DNA of 35,368 nucleotides from a virus. Shown here in pieces: positions 91 through 24,975 of this stretch. The notes beneath the pieces are model-generated. The model was not told where the DNA came from and did no database searches. It saw only the letters and a program-made list of their open reading frames with translations. The DNA lies in IMG/VR virus record IMGVR_UViG_3300047554_000798, positions 1-35,368 of that record, one strand, 5' to 3'. Made by a program: the position numbers and the translations under genes. The stretch's first letter is position 1. Each line of letters opens with the position of its first letter.

Positions 91-127
91 GGACCGAGCC
101 GGGTTGACCCGGTCCCTATTTTTTATT
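91..127 (+). terminator. GC-rich hairpin plus T-run between ardC and the 73-aa gene
   Basis: GGACC at 91-95 can pair with GGTCC at 111-115, with a CCGGGT/ACCCGG element inside. On the plus strand a T-rich run follows, so it would work as a plus-strand terminator. On the minus strand, the coding direction here, no T-run follows and the hairpin sits between the ardC stop and the next ribosome site. It could therefore be an mRNA processing or stability element. A similar hairpin lies at 35051-35073. Confidence 0.55.
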
Positions 128-962
128 CTTCGCCTAAGAAATGTTTAACCGCTTTTTCGGCTTGGGAACTTGCAGAGATTAAAAGTTTGTTATCGTTCTT
201 TAGAGCGGACAACCAACCTTCGATATAAGAAGCCGAATTTTGAATAGTGTAGTCAAGGATATTAGCCATTCCACAAAGCATTGATGCCCCAAGTTCGGCA
301 ACCAGTTCTTCCTTGCTGTATGTAGCAGAACCGAAGGAAGCAAGTTTTGTGATGCCGTCACGATTCAAGCGAGATGCATGACCCGTGCTGTGAATAAGTT
401 CATGGAAGAGAACCGAGTAGTAACCTTCGCTTGTATTGAATTGTGTTTTTTTCGGCATTGTCACCGAATCAAGTGATGGTTGGTAGTATGCGTGTTCTTG
501 TTGTACGTGTCTTACTTTTGGACCGTTTGTATATTTGCTTAGAAGTAGTTCAGCAAGTTCGTTGCTATTCACTTCTTCTGTTTTTTCTGGTTGGCGTTTT
601 GGTTCGATGCCTTCGCATTGTGTCGCTACATTGAAAACGTTGTAGTATTTAAGAAGCGGAATTGTTTTGATAACCGTTTGATTTTTTTCGTCTTTCTCTT
701 CGACTTTCAACATTTGCCAGTAGACCACGATTTGTGACTTTTCACCTTTTTTAACTTTGCCCCCTGCGTCAGTCACTTGTTTAAATGTGGCATATTCGCC
801 AGTTTCTAGCAACCATAAGTTGATGCCACGGTAAGGCTTTTGTGTTACCCAGTTAACTGGTGTTGTGTTAGCCGACCAAGGACGTGCCCAAGGGATAGTA
901 CCTGCTTTCAATGTATCCATGATGCGGTTTGTTACGATTTCATATACGTTTACTTTTGACAT
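123..962 (-). CDS. ardC: ArdC-type antirestriction protein (ssDNA-binding N-terminus plus zincin metallopeptidase)
   Basis: Predicted 279 aa from the ATG at 962, which has an AAGGGGG ribosome site. The longer reading upstream has no such site and overlaps the preceding gene. The N-terminal half has the pattern of ArdC-like ssDNA-binding domains: an opening helix with NVYEIVTNRI, then a tryptophan-rich IPWARPW, and NVFNVAT near the domain end. The C-terminal half has a zincin motif HELIHSTGH followed by EELVAELGA, which supplies the third glutamate ligand. In known members ArdC protects incoming DNA from host restriction, and the peptidase part may cut host proteins. It is the third gene of a minus-strand operon starting at 1414. 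Family call firm; role in this phage inferred. Confidence 0.88.
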   Translation of the reverse strand: MSKVNVYEIVTNRIMDTLKAGTIPWARPWSANTTPVNWVTQKPYRGINLWLLETGEYATFKQVTDAGGKVKKGEKSQIVVYWQMLKVEEKDEKNQTVIKTIPLLKYYNVFNVATQCEGIEPKRQPEKTEEVNSNELAELLLSKYTNGPKVRHVQQEHAYYQPSLDSVTMPKKTQFNTSEGYYSVLFHELIHSTGHASRLNRDGITKLASFGSATYSKEELVAELGASMLCGMANILDYTIQNSASYIEGWLSALKNDNKLLISASSQAEKAVKHFLGEE

Positions 963-975
963 TTTAATTTCCCCC

Positions 976-1188
976 TTAATTTTGAGAAGCAAGAAATTCA
1001 ACCGCTTCACTTCTTGTCCAGAATTCAATTGTTTTTCCGTTTTTGATAACTTCCCAAACCGTGTTGTTTCTTGCAAATCTTTTGAATGTTTTGTAAACAC
1101 CACCAACAAATTCCCCATCTTTGTAAACTTCATAAGCACTTGTGATATAACCATCAATTTTTTTTAATTTAACCTTTGAGTTAGCCAT
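976..1188 (-). CDS. Small hypothetical protein in the ArdC operon (70 aa)
   Basis: Family not recognised. The ATG at 1188 has a GAGAGGAG ribosome site, while a longer reading to 1254 would overlap the preceding gene. The protein is basic at its start (KVKLKKIDGY) and rich in aromatic and beta-forming residues (AYEVYKDGEFVGGVYKTF, WEVIKNGKTIEFW), suggesting a small all-beta or alpha/beta domain with a repeated turn. No membrane segment or cysteine cluster is visible. It ends 13 bases before the ardC start, so the two are surely co-transcribed. An anti-defence role is possible by association only. Confidence 0.75.
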   Translation of the reverse strand: MANSKVKLKKIDGYITSAYEVYKDGEFVGGVYKTFKRFARNNTVWEVIKNGKTIEFWTRSEAVEFLASQN

Positions 1189-6502: not shown

Positions 6503-7330
6503 ATGGCAATTAATTTAGCGACTAAGTATTCGAACAAGGTAGACGAGCGTTTTAAACTTCAATCTTTAACAGAAATCGGTGTAAACCGTGACTATGACTG
6601 GACAGGCGTAAAAACGGTATCCGTTTATTCCATCCCAACAGTTCCGTTGGTAGATTACACACGTACAGGTTTGAACCGTTACGGTACAGCAACAGAATTG
6701 CAAGACGTGAAACAAGATTTGACTCTTGCAAACGACAAAGCATTTAACTTCACAATTGATAAAGGTAACTACGAAGAGCAAAACATGATTAAAGAAGCAG
6801 GTAAAGCACTTGCTCGTGAAATCGATGAAGTTGTAACACCTACAATTGACATCTACCGCCTTGCTGTAATGTCCGCTAGTGCCGTTGCAAACGGTGGTTC
6901 TGTAACTGGTGCGGTATCCGCTACAAACGCTTATTCCAAGTTCTTGGCAGGTGCAGAGTACCTTTCCGACAACAAAGTACCATTGGCTAAACGTGTAGCA
7001 TTCGTATCCCCATCTTTCTACTCTTTCATTAAACAAGACTCTTCTTTCTTGAAAGCATCCGATATGGGTCAAGCAATGTTAAACAAAGGTGTAGTTGGTG
7101 AAATTGACGGTATCAAAATCGTTCAAGTTCCATCTTCCTACTTACCTGCTAACACAGCATTCATCATGGCGCATCCTTCCGCAGTAGTGTCCGCTTCCAA
7201 ATTGGAAGATTACAAGACTCATGACAACCCTCCTGGTATCAATGGTTGGTTGGTAGAAGGACGCATCATCTTCGATGCATTCGTATTGAACAGCAAAGTT
7301 AAAGGTGTATACACACACAAAACGGCTTAA
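6503..7330 (+). CDS. Major capsid protein
   Basis: Forms the icosahedral shell. 275 aa from the ATG at 6503 (AGGAGTG site). It follows the scaffold and precedes connector genes, as in most tailed phages. The sequence shows an N-arm (INLATKYSNKVDERFKLQ), an extended DYTRTGLNRYGTATEL region and a spine-helix-like segment (EEQNMIKEAGKALAREIDEV), consistent with an HK97-type fold of about 30 kDa. Codons are highly biased toward AAC/GGT/GCA, as expected of the most strongly expressed gene. There is no cleavage site I can identify. Confidence 0.85.
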   Translation: MAINLATKYSNKVDERFKLQSLTEIGVNRDYDWTGVKTVSVYSIPTVPLVDYTRTGLNRYGTATELQDVKQDLTLANDKAFNFTIDKGNYEEQNMIKEAGKALAREIDEVVTPTIDIYRLAVMSASAVANGGSVTGAVSATNAYSKFLAGAEYLSDNKVPLAKRVAFVSPSFYSFIKQDSSFLKASDMGQAMLNKGVVGEIDGIKIVQVPSSYLPANTAFIMAHPSAVVSASKLEDYKTHDNPPGINGWLVEGRIIFDAFVLNSKVKGVYTHKTA

Positions 7331-22370: not shown

Positions 22371-22398
22371 GAGCCACCTTCGGGTGGTTCTTTTTTTT
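22371..22398 (+). terminator. Terminator of the late/lysis operon
   Basis: GAGCCACC (22371-22378), loop TTCG, GGTGGTTC (22383-22390), then eight Ts. It is a near-ideal rho-independent terminator with a UUCG tetraloop. The 113 bases before it (22258-22370) hold only a weak TGGAA/TTCCA stem and a pyrimidine tract (CTCTCTCTC repeats), with no gene. Confidence 0.9.
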
Positions 22399-22407
22399 GC
22401 CCCATTC

Positions 22408-22432
22408 TTGCCCCGTTTTTGCCCCGTAAACT
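22408..22432. repeat. 25-bp direct repeat, copy 1
   Basis: Begins TTGCCCCGTTTTTGCCCC and ends GTAAACT; identical to 22603-22627. Candidate integrase arm site. Confidence 0.9.
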
Positions 22433-22602
22433 ATAAAAAACTATGAAATACTATGAGAAGTCGATTTTTGAAAAACGTTGATATTACGGGTTTTTTCGAA
22501 TATGTTGATATATTATGACAGTTCACCTTATAATAGGGTGATATTTTTGTTATGCACAACAAACCTTATAATAACGGGCTTTTTCTGGTTTTTAAAGTAC
22601 GT

Positions 22603-22627
22603 TTGCCCCGTTTTTGCCCCGTAAACT
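22603..22627. repeat. 25-bp direct repeat, copy 2
   Basis: Identical to 22408-22432; its last base is the end of the integrase stop codon. Confidence 0.9.
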
Positions 22628-23772
22628 TATCCCATGTACTTTTCATAACGCTCCATTGCATCGTTTTCCATTTGCTTTGTGACGTGAACGTAAATGTTTA
22701 AAGTTGTGTTAACGGATGCATGTCCAAGACGCTCGGAAACGTATTTAACTGGAATTCCCGTTTCGATTAAATGCACAGCGTGGGTATGACGTAAATTGTG
22801 AATCGTCATATGAGGAACACCAGTCATTTTGCATGTTTGAGTAAGTGCCGGGCGAATGACTTGTGGGCGAAGATATAAACCATCAGTTTGGTGAAAAATT
22901 AAGTTAAATGGAGATGGCGAAATACCCATATCGGAAATAACCCACTTCTTTTGTTCTGTGCGGTGTTTTTGTAGCAACTTGAGTGTTTTATCATCCAAGC
23001 GAATAGAACGCAAACTAGCCTTACTTTTGGGCGGTATAGCGTATGGTTTTGGTTGCTTCACATACATAAGTGTTTTATTGACAGATAACGTCTTTGTATC
23101 AAAGTCAATGTCATCCCAGGTTAAGGCTAAACATTCACCAATACGAATGCCGGTTCTGGCAATAAGTGAGAAGAAGGCGTGGTATTGGAAGTTATAAATG
23201 CTATTGAAGAGTTGTTTTTCAAATCCCGCCAATAATGTATCCAATTCTTCTTTGGATAGTGTTTTAACCGGCTTAACAACAACTTCTTCTTTTGGCATTT
23301 TAATGTTGTCTACTGGATTCTTGTATAGGAAGTTGAAATCATCAACAGCCGATTGCAAAATAAAATAAACGATACTATGCAGAACACGAATTGTGTTTCT
23401 TTTTTTAGTTTTTGACAAATCATTTATCCATCTTTGATAGTCGGTCCGGGTGATATCTTTTAGTCGCTGTTTCCCAAAACGGGGGATAATGTGATTTTCC
23501 AAATTCGCTGTATAAGAAATGATGCTGTTTGGCTTCAAGTGAGGTTTTTTGTACACTTCAAGCCAAGTACGGGCGAATGTTTCAAACAATTCATCGCCAT
23601 TCTCTTTAAACCCGTTTCTATCTAACATTTCTTCGGCTTTTCTACCCGCATATCGGGCTTCCTGCTCCGTTGCAAATCCACCTTTGGATATTTCGTCTGG
23701 CTTCCCGGTTAGTTTGTCTTTAAAACGAATGCGATATTCCCATGACTTTCCACGTTTTCGATACGTTGCCAT
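22627..23772 (-). CDS. int: Tyrosine integrase
   Basis: Integrates the phage into the host chromosome and, with a directionality factor, excises it. 381 aa from the ATG at 23772, eight bases after AAGGGG; a GTG three codons upstream overlaps that site. N-terminal arm-binding AP2-like domain (YRKRGKSWEYRIRF, GGFATEQEARYAG), SAM-like core-binding domain (about 65-160), and catalytic domain with the arginine in RTGIRIGE, lysine in PKSKASLRSI, HNLRHTH (about 325-328), LGHAS (H near 351) and nucleophile Y near 361 in TLNIYVHV. All catalytic residues are present. It is transcribed toward the late operon, leftward from the immunity region. Confidence 0.95.
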   Translation of the reverse strand: MATYRKRGKSWEYRIRFKDKLTGKPDEISKGGFATEQEARYAGRKAEEMLDRNGFKENGDELFETFARTWLEVYKKPHLKPNSIISYTANLENHIIPRFGKQRLKDITRTDYQRWINDLSKTKKRNTIRVLHSIVYFILQSAVDDFNFLYKNPVDNIKMPKEEVVVKPVKTLSKEELDTLLAGFEKQLFNSIYNFQYHAFFSLIARTGIRIGECLALTWDDIDFDTKTLSVNKTLMYVKQPKPYAIPPKSKASLRSIRLDDKTLKLLQKHRTEQKKWVISDMGISPSPFNLIFHQTDGLYLRPQVIRPALTQTCKMTGVPHMTIHNLRHTHAVHLIETGIPVKYVSERLGHASVNTTLNIYVHVTKQMENDAMERYEKYMG

Positions 23773-23833
23773 TCCATTCACCCCTTAGTAAGAATGTAAT
23801 TTTTCAGTAAATTTTCGTGATAAAACCCTATGC

Positions 23834-24074
23834 TTCGACACGTTTTGTCGAATTGTGTAGAATTTCTAAACATTTAAGTCGATTTACAGGGATATTTTGT
23901 CGAATTGTGTAGAATTTCTAAACAAATAGATGAACTTGATACACTTAGTCATGAAATAAGTGTGATAAATGTTTTGTAATTCTAAACAAAATACGACACG
24001 ACACACCAAGAAAAGTGTTATTTCGACACGTTTTGTCGAATTGTGTAGAACGATTTGTGTTGAAATACTAAACA
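23834..24074. promoter_or_regulatory. Two-motif operator array between int and cI
   Basis: The 348 bases at 23773-24120 hold no gene I would call but are rich in palindromes. Box A, TTCGACACGTTTTGTCGAA (7-bp arms), occurs exactly at 23834-23852 and 24022-24040, with a half copy at 23898. Box B, TGTGTAGAATTTCTAAACA, a 19-bp palindrome with one mismatch, occurs at 23854-23872 and exactly again at 23906-23924, with diverged forms at 23970-23988 and 24056-24074. A and B are often adjacent: 30 bases at 23843-23872 recur at 23895-23924, and 29 bases at 23834-23862 recur at 24022-24050. CGACACG-type copies recur at the cro promoter. Two dedicated DNA-binding proteins are implied. Confidence 0.75.
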
Positions 24075-24088
24075 TAAAACCTAATAAT
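24060..24088 (+). promoter_or_regulatory. Putative promoter for the 36-aa ORF
   Basis: TTGAAA (24060-24065), 17 bases, AATAAT (24083-24088). The -35 lies inside the last box B (24056-24074), so a protein bound there would block it. Moderate match to consensus. Confidence 0.4.
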
Positions 24089-24120: not shown

Positions 24121-24231
24121 ATGGGATTGTGTTTTATTATTAGGCAATTGCTTCATGATGTTGAAATTGAAGTGTTGCGATTAGTACGAAAAATGATTGA
24201 TGAAATTATCGAAGAACGGACAGCAGTTTAA
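24121..24231 (+). CDS. Possible 36-aa peptide converging on cI
   Basis: ATG at 24121 with GGGGAG upstream, ending TAA at 24231, 26 bases inside the 3' end of the repressor gene on the other strand. The product (MGLCFIIRQLL, then DVEIEVLRLVRKMIDEIIEE) is amphipathic and helical with no signal peptide. Transcription from the promoter at 24060-24088 would run antisense through cI, which could lower repressor level. Evidence is the ribosome site, the promoter and its operators; no family recognised. It may be only an antisense-RNA leader. Confidence 0.4.
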   Translation: MGLCFIIRQLLHDVEIEVLRLVRKMIDEIIEERTAV

Positions 24232-24601
24232 TAATTTTTGAGCGTGTTTCTTCATCTACTAATTTGCCATCCATAAAAAGCGGGAGATTTTCATTTTGCA
24301 CAATTTTGAGCAAGTCGATTTTCCCGCTTTCAGAGCCGGATAAAAGGAATTCATCCGCTCCTTTGAACAAGTCATAAATATCTACATTCAATGCCTTTGC
24401 CACTTCGGTAGCACGGTTCATATCGATTTTAATTTCCCCTCGTTCATAGCGATGAATGGTTTTAGCCGTTACATTTGTACGCTCCGCTAATGTCTGTAAA
24501 GAAAACCCACGTGTATTTCTTATGTTCTTAATATTTTCCCCTACTTGTTGATAGAATTTTTTAGATGCTTCGGTTCCATCCGAACTTTGCGCTCTTGTCA
24601 T
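24206..24601 (-). CDS. cI-like: CI-like repressor, XRE family (131 aa)
   Basis: Keeps the lysogen by repressing early genes. 131 aa from the ATG at 24601, with an AGGAAG site; a GTG three codons upstream is in the site. Helix-turn-helix of the XRE type spans about residues 20-75: IRNTRGFSLQTLAERTNVTA, KTIHRYERGEIK, ATEVAKALNVDIYDLF. The C-terminal part ends with MDGKLVDEETRSKIIKLL, a pattern of short non-cleaved XRE regulators. It lacks an S24 peptidase domain, and no ImmA-like peptidase gene lies nearby, so induction probably does not use RecA autocleavage. Transcribed leftward, divergent from the cro-like gene. Confidence 0.85.
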   Translation of the reverse strand: MTRAQSSDGTEASKKFYQQVGENIKNIRNTRGFSLQTLAERTNVTAKTIHRYERGEIKIDMNRATEVAKALNVDIYDLFKGADEFLLSGSESGKIDLLKIVQNENLPLFMDGKLVDEETRSKIIKLLSVLR

Positions 24602-24641
24602 GTTTTTCACTTCCTCTCAATTTTTTTTTGGATTTTTTTCT

Positions 24642-24655: not shown

Positions 24656-24765
24656 AAGACAAGAAAAATACCTTTTTTACCAAATTTTGTGGTTTACAAG
24701 ACAAAAAAAGTCATGGTATGCTTGTCATGTCATAAAACGACACGCTTCGACAACACGTTTCGACA
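24656..24765. promoter_or_regulatory. Immunity operators and cro-side promoter
   Basis: AAGACAA occurs near 24656 and again near 24698, with CTTGTC at 24721 as an inverted copy, then ACGACACGCTTCGACAACACG and GTTTCGACAGG (24738-24765), relatives of box A. A rightward promoter reads TTTACA (24693-24698), 18 bases, TATGCT (24717-24722). This 176-base divergent region (24602-24777) is the expected genetic switch. Confidence 0.55.
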
Positions 24766-24777
24766 GGGGGTGACAAA

Positions 24778-24975
24778 ATGAAACTTACAATTAAAAACTT
24801 ACGTCAGTTGGCAGGATTATCCCAAGAGCAAGTCGCAAAGGAATTAGAACTCTCTTTGACTGGTTATGCCAATAAAGAACAGGGGAAATCGAAGTTTTAC
24901 TTTTCCGAGGTGGTAGCACTTTCGAAATTGTTTAACATTGATATCCACTTTTTTTTGGACAATGAATGTCTTTAA
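24778..24975 (+). CDS. cro-like: Cro-like XRE regulator (65 aa)
   Basis: First gene of the early operon, opposing the repressor. 65 aa from the ATG at 24778 with GGGGGTGA as site. One XRE helix-turn-helix fills the protein: IKNLRQLAGLSQEQVAKELE then LSLTGYANKEQGKSKFYFSE and a C-terminal LSKLFNIDIHFFLD. Size and position right across the divergent promoters match Cro. Likely binds the same operators as the CI-like protein. No other domain. Confidence 0.85.
   Translation: MKLTIKNLRQLAGLSQEQVAKELELSLTGYANKEQGKSKFYFSEVVALSKLFNIDIHFFLDNECL

Follow-up and report, generated by a model that had tools for sequence, protein, structure and literature searches.

Between the integrase gene and the repressor gene of the phage analysed here lies a cluster of short palindromes, which raises the question of which protein binds them and which genes that protein would control. 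The window, by which we mean the whole stretch of DNA that was analysed, is a virus record of 35,368 bases with a GC content of 39%.

Architecture of the array between int and cI

The tyrosine integrase gene int (22627..23781) and the gene for a CI-like HTH repressor from which the peptidase domain is absent (24206..24610) are both on the minus strand, whereas a Cro-like HTH protein (24778..24975) and an open reading frame of 36 codons (ORF36; 24121..24231, with the ribosome site GGGGAG) are encoded on the plus strand. The spacer between the int start, near 23781, and ORF36 measures about 340 bp, the stop codon of cI is at 24206, and the array (23834-24074) is flanked by the starts of the divergent genes int and ORF36, with its first box about 53 bp from the int start. 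No homologue or domain was found for ORF36. This reading frame converges on cI such that the 3' ends of the two genes (24121-24231 and 24206-24610) overlap by 26 bases, and no terminator was found between them. The replication genes, which encode phage_rep_org and a G39P-like loader, are located away from the array, and an ArdC-type antirestriction protein (ArdcN + MPTase-PolyVal) is encoded on the minus strand at the edge of the record (window 123-1157).

Two palindromic boxes recur in the array, as an earlier note on this DNA had described, and exact copies of both were confirmed. Box A, TTCGACACGTTTTGTCGAA, is present in two exact copies, A1 (23834..23852) and A3 (24022..24040), each an inverted pair TTCGACA-N5-TGTCGAA, and in one half copy, A2 (23895..23904, plus strand), in which the left arm is degenerate and the right arm plus its flank, TTTTGTCGAA, is retained. 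Box B, TGTGTAGAATTTCTAAACA, is present in two exact copies, B1 (23854..23872) and B2 (23906..23924), and in two degenerate copies with two mismatches each, B3 (23970..23988) and B4 (24056..24074). A third palindrome, ACACTTA-N9-TAAGTGT, occupies the middle of the array (23941..23963). The 29- and 30-base repeats given in the earlier note, which link the boxes, are both present: the exact 30-mer TTTTGTCGAATTGTGTAGAATTTCTAAACA occurs at 23843-23872 and 23895-23924, and the exact 29-mer TTCGACACGTTTTGTCGAATTGTGTAGAA, read directly from the sequence, at 23834-23862 and 24022-24050. The ordering of the boxes into A-B pairs can be refined: the unit shared by the three A-B junctions is the 20-mer TTTTGTCGAATTGTGTAGAA, the middle A is only half a box, and behind A3 there is half a B before a diverged full B. 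In dinucleotide-preserving shuffles of the window the array patterns had on average 0.00-0.08 matches, and the array is real and very probably regulatory.

The earlier idea that the array controls int or ORF36 fits this layout. A promoter-like site for ORF36, TTGAAA-N17-AATAAT (24060..24088, plus strand), which is a sigma-A-like consensus match only (10 of 12 positions), has its -35-like TTGAAA inside B4, and the centre of A3 would be about 64 bp upstream of the start from this site. For int, the promoter scan returned no good sigma-A promoter, a result that would be compatible with a protein at A1/B1 activating the gene.

Box B was found nowhere else in the window. The earlier note had called for a search for both boxes in related prophages, and no relative of the array was found: a 17-mer spanning the A-B junction matched one viral contig that is unrelated to the array, the exact A-B composite had no match in 349 Bacilli genomes, and the box B palindrome had a single match, in an unrelated contig. 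When box B was compared by eye with known consensus sites of host regulators, it did not fit as a site for sigma-H, CodY or TnrA/GlnR, nor as parS. Either a phage protein or a host protein could bind it.

The arms of box A match the Spo0A core

Spo0A is the master regulator by which the host turns to spore formation, and its sites have the core TGTCGAA (TGNCGAA). The 7-bp form TGTCGAA is the published core (PMC3485338), and both arms of box A are perfect copies of it (0A boxes). This points to a host regulator, which had been overlooked in the earlier note. The whole window contains 15 perfect copies of TGTCGAA against about 5 expected, and 7 of the 15 are found between 23834 and 24765, five of them in the array and the other two in the cro leader. 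The resulting densities are 5 copies in 241 bp and 7 in 932 bp; when the window was simulated 300 times with an order-2 Markov model, neither span ever held more than 3. Since the array is built of repeats, however, this excess only demonstrates that the motif is repeated and does not by itself tell which protein binds it. The A/T-rich flank that extends the core to about TTTTGTCGAA(A/T) is present at 23846, 23898 and 24034, while the other four copies have G/C beside the core.

The two additional 0A boxes lie at 24746 and 24759 on the minus strand (24746..24765), where they form a direct repeat 13 bp apart. The order on this side is the cro promoter predicted by the promoter scan (TTTACA-N18-TATGCT), then the probable CI/Cro operator, and then the two 0A boxes.

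Spo0A usually binds boxes in head-to-tail orientation with a spacing of about 10 bp, the arrangement of the known dimer complex. This spacing is absent here, the array pairs being inverted with a 5-base gap and the cro-leader pair being direct but 13 bp apart, and for this reason we do not class the array as a proven member of the Spo0A regulon. It also counts against Spo0A that a 19-bp palindrome is the kind of site that a phage HTH dimer would bind. The structural relatives of the phage infect Bacillus, Brevibacillus and Geobacillus.

The wider surveys were negative. Upstream of 90 Bacilli integrases, TGTCGAA was not enriched (9 copies in 108 kb, which is below the mean of 180 7-mers of the same composition), although Spo0A is encoded in 72 of the 73 genomes of this set that were checked; 0A boxes at int are therefore not a common phage device. 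Among low-GC viral contigs, the inverted pair with the 5-base gap was found between genes in 4 of 42 cases against 2 of 46 for the control pattern, which is no enrichment, and in Bacilli genomes the inverted 0A pattern was not clearly commoner than a reversed-pattern control. These results imply that the arrangement in the window is rare and that inverted 0A boxes do not constitute a general signature.

Phage regulators and other candidate readings of the array

We give a probability of about one half to the reading in which the array and the cro leader together form a composite control region where host Spo0A~P would bias transcription of int, ORF36 and the early lytic genes. A possible alternative, to which we give less weight, is that box A is a second operator type for the regulators of the phage itself (CI, Cro or the phrog_9848 protein), the int-side array and the cro-side copy forming a pair like that of lambda, and that box B is bound by another phage protein. 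Several observations speak for it. Box A is a 19-bp dyad, as is typical for HTH dimers, and a relative that matches it at 16 of 19 positions is present in the cro leader (24746-24764, minus strand). The motif CGACACG is common to box A and the CI/Cro operator, and 4 of its 6 copies in the window fall in this control region. Moreover, A1, A3 and the cro-leader site are spaced near whole helical turns (188 bp and 724 bp). Because of the shared CGACACG and the 16/19 copy, a phage protein stays in consideration as the binder of box A. The earlier proposal that the array partners the sites beside cro fits in so far as box A has this relative there, but not for box B, of which there is no copy on that side.

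The main argument against the phage operator comes from a separate site. The probable true CI/Cro operator, ATGTCATAAAACGACACG (24727..24744), aligns with GTGTC-N6-GACAC, which is located directly before cro in four phages with related repressors (L002, L003, Paenibacillus phage Tripp and phage D6E). Its dyad (GTC...GAC) is opposite to that of box A, and no TTCGACA was found in the cI-cro regions of these four relatives. This conserved operator accounts for the CI/Cro-type site without any need for box A, and the earlier view that the boxes are extra operators for the phage repressors is consequently not favoured. One-armed copies of box A also count against a phage operator. In the five phages with GTGTC-N6-GACAC directly before cro (the window, L002, L003, L077 and L078), the repressors share the N-terminal HTH and differ beyond it, and the extra C-terminal part is absent from the window's repressor.

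Two phages with 0A boxes beside int bear on the same question. The first, G357 (IMGVR_UViG_3300046501_000349), shares the head lineage and was selected by capsid and integrase, independently of the motif. Its tyrosine integrase is 30% identical to that of the window and its repressor 29% identical over 70 residues. Only three TGTCGAA copies occur in its 39 kb, two of which form an inverted pair with a 15-base gap in the 174-bp spacer between int and cI, where about 0.015 copies are expected at a background of about one per 12 kb. By our estimate, two copies would arise by chance in about 1 in 10,000 spacers, or with a chance of about 1 in 100 over the roughly 120 spacers examined. The second, L279 (IMGVR_UViG_2738543010_000001), was found by motif search. 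Its 42 kb contain 5 TGTCGAA copies, of which 3 are packed into 41 bp of the spacer between int and cI, one pair having the 5-base gap of box A, while the repeats on its cro side are of the TTGAA/TTCAA type. In both phages TGTCGAA is present in the int spacer and absent on the cro side, which counts against the phage-operator reading. As judged by reading, the cro side of G357 carries a putative repressor operator of the TTTCC-TTATA-GGGAAA type, and a like site lies by the int promoter, so that the 0A pair is separate from the repressor operator. On the other hand, one CI operator type seems to be present at the cro side of G357 as well as at its int promoter, which speaks for the phage-operator reading. 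The site beside the int promoter of G357, TTTCCC-TCTAA-GGAAA, resembles the cro-side TTTCCTTATAGGGAAA (L181:6240-6440, 6830-6990), and in this phage CI may repress int directly.

The capsid relatives as a whole had been gathered without the motif, and no close inverted 0A pair was found in the other records of this lineage; G357 had been overlooked in the search for close pairs because of its 15-base gap. Over the aligned parts, the repressors of the window, G357 and L279 are only 29-38% alike; for the integrases the values are 30-43%.

It is improbable that the array is part of attP, in which case boxes A and B would be arm-type sites for Int, or sites for Xis, with a role in shaping the integration complex. 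The array does adjoin int and its sites are repeated, and downstream of cro there is a gene for a small protein whose family is found together with integrases of this type. However, the probable attP lies on the other side of int (22397..22627, downstream of the gene), where the arm-type direct repeats TTGCCCCGTTTTTGCCCCGTAAACT are found at 22408-22432 and 22603-22627, and in SPbetaL5 and YPHTV-1, which share the window's integrase type and the neighbouring phrog_9848 protein, comparable repeats likewise lie downstream of int. On account of these repeats, here and in the relatives, the array was rejected as attP, and the copy of box A in the cro leader is moreover distant from it. A possible core near 22525-22587 is flanked by the TTGCCCC direct repeats, which are paired at a distance of about 200 bp.

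A role of the array as RNA, in which hairpins in a long int leader would control int after initiation, appears very improbable. The 339-nt minus-strand leader folds better than its shuffles (z = -1.98), with hairpins from box A and from the palindrome at 23941-23963, but a hairpin is obtained from any DNA palindrome, the fold is little better than expected, with 2 of 100 shuffles doing as well, and a search of Rfam gave no family match. The least probable of these readings, in which an iteron-like or centromere-like site would serve the partition or replication of a phage capable of living as a plasmid, would suit the phased, repeated palindromes and the AT-rich spacer, but no partition gene was recognised among the scanned proteins and the replication genes lie elsewhere.

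Spo0A as a candidate input to the lysis-lysogeny decision

Some genes with a known or expected link to Spo0A also have inverted 0A boxes upstream. In the phage record L007 (IMGVR_UViG_2716885053_000001), found by motif search, TTCGACA-N5-TGTCGAA lies 82 bp upstream of a Spo0E-like gene (PF09388, E 1.7e-11). Spo0E proteins remove the phosphate from Spo0A~P, so that a gene of this kind would be expected under Spo0A control, and it is possible that it serves as a phage sporulation brake regulated in this way. This phage (L007:827-1124, also L183) combines replication genes with the Spo0E-like gene, and its twin of box A reads TTCGACAAATGTTGTCGAA. Inverted 0A pairs with a 3-base gap are also present upstream of abrB, a classical Spo0A target, in two Bacilli (L132 and L205).

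Further observations are recorded here separately. In six genomes (G314, G340, G269, G057, G349 and G224; L186-L191), an inverted TTCGACA-N3-TGTCGAA is shared between the same two divergent genes, which by eye are leucyl-aminopeptidase-like and PTS enzyme I-like. At L006:3314-4799, a large XRE regulator is followed by a small signal-peptide-like ORF that ends in an inverted TTCGACA/TGTCGAA pair, and the two may form a peptide-signalling pair. The high-GC viral contigs L212, L214, L219, L237, L268, L274, L285 and L294 share a repeated block, TTTCGACATTTTGTGTCGAAAATAG(G/A)CCTCATTCTGATAC, which precedes ORFs starting LPPKPAKRKPAGF or LHPKPAQRKPAGF and looks like a mobile cassette or a promoter block. 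A match to box A between genes of phage TP-84 (22/24) was set aside because of its E value of 0.6 and one broken arm.

In the composite control region that we favour, Spo0A sites (box A) would alternate in the int-cI spacer with sites for a second regulator (box B). Upon starvation of the host, Spo0A would become phosphorylated and would occupy A1, A2 and A3 together with the two 0A boxes of the cro leader. Bound just past the predicted cro promoter, Spo0A~P would block early lytic transcription, and bound beside int it would alter, most likely increase, the expression of int. It is the position of the 0A boxes past the cro promoter together with the lack of a good sigma-A promoter for int in the scan that leads us to propose that Spo0A~P holds back the lytic genes and probably raises int. 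In infected or induced cells that enter sporulation, integration or dormancy would thus be favoured over lysis. The proposal builds on the observed repeats, the perfect match of the box A arms to the 0A core, the positions of the sites, the separate conserved operator and the like clusters in two other phages, from which we infer Spo0A binding, the direction of its effect and the involvement of box B. Somewhat more tentatively, we suggest that the lysis-lysogeny switch of this temperate phage is wired to sporulation, Spo0A~P and the box B protein together setting int and early lytic transcription, and that similar clusters beside int evolved or were retained in phages whose repressors have diverged.

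A precedent for the exploitation of Spo0A by a phage is Bacillus phage phi29 (PMC9437464). In phi29 the lytic cycle is suspended by way of 0A boxes at the early promoters, and the genome is thereby trapped in the spore. The window resembles phi29 in having 0A boxes at phage control regions and in the predicted hold on lytic growth in sporulating cells. Unlike phi29, the window's phage is temperate, and its predicted Spo0A sites are located in the int-cI spacer and the leader of cro, where most of them form inverted pairs within repeated composite units. The likeness to the OL and OR operators of lambda, with their looping by CI, lies in repeated dyads on either side of the repressor gene that are roughly helically phased; in contrast to lambda, box A differs from the operator conserved in this CI family and no box B is found at the cro side. 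The CtrA-dependent deferment of the lytic cycle in phages of Alphaproteobacteria is supported by experiments (PMC9437464). As is proposed for the window, it involves sites for a host developmental regulator that cluster at phage promoters, but the regulator and the hosts differ. A host transcription factor is also wired into the lysis-lysogeny switch through the LexA sites of temperate phages such as GIL01, although the boxes in the window are not LexA boxes and would sense sporulation rather than DNA damage.

In a literature search outside which most subscription papers fell, no description of 0A boxes at the integrase and cro genes of a temperate phage was found. The use of Spo0A is already known from the lytic phi29 group, and the present case would be its temperate-phage variant. 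If this reading is true, the lysogeny decision would respond directly to the cell's entry into sporulation, as it does to DNA damage via LexA.
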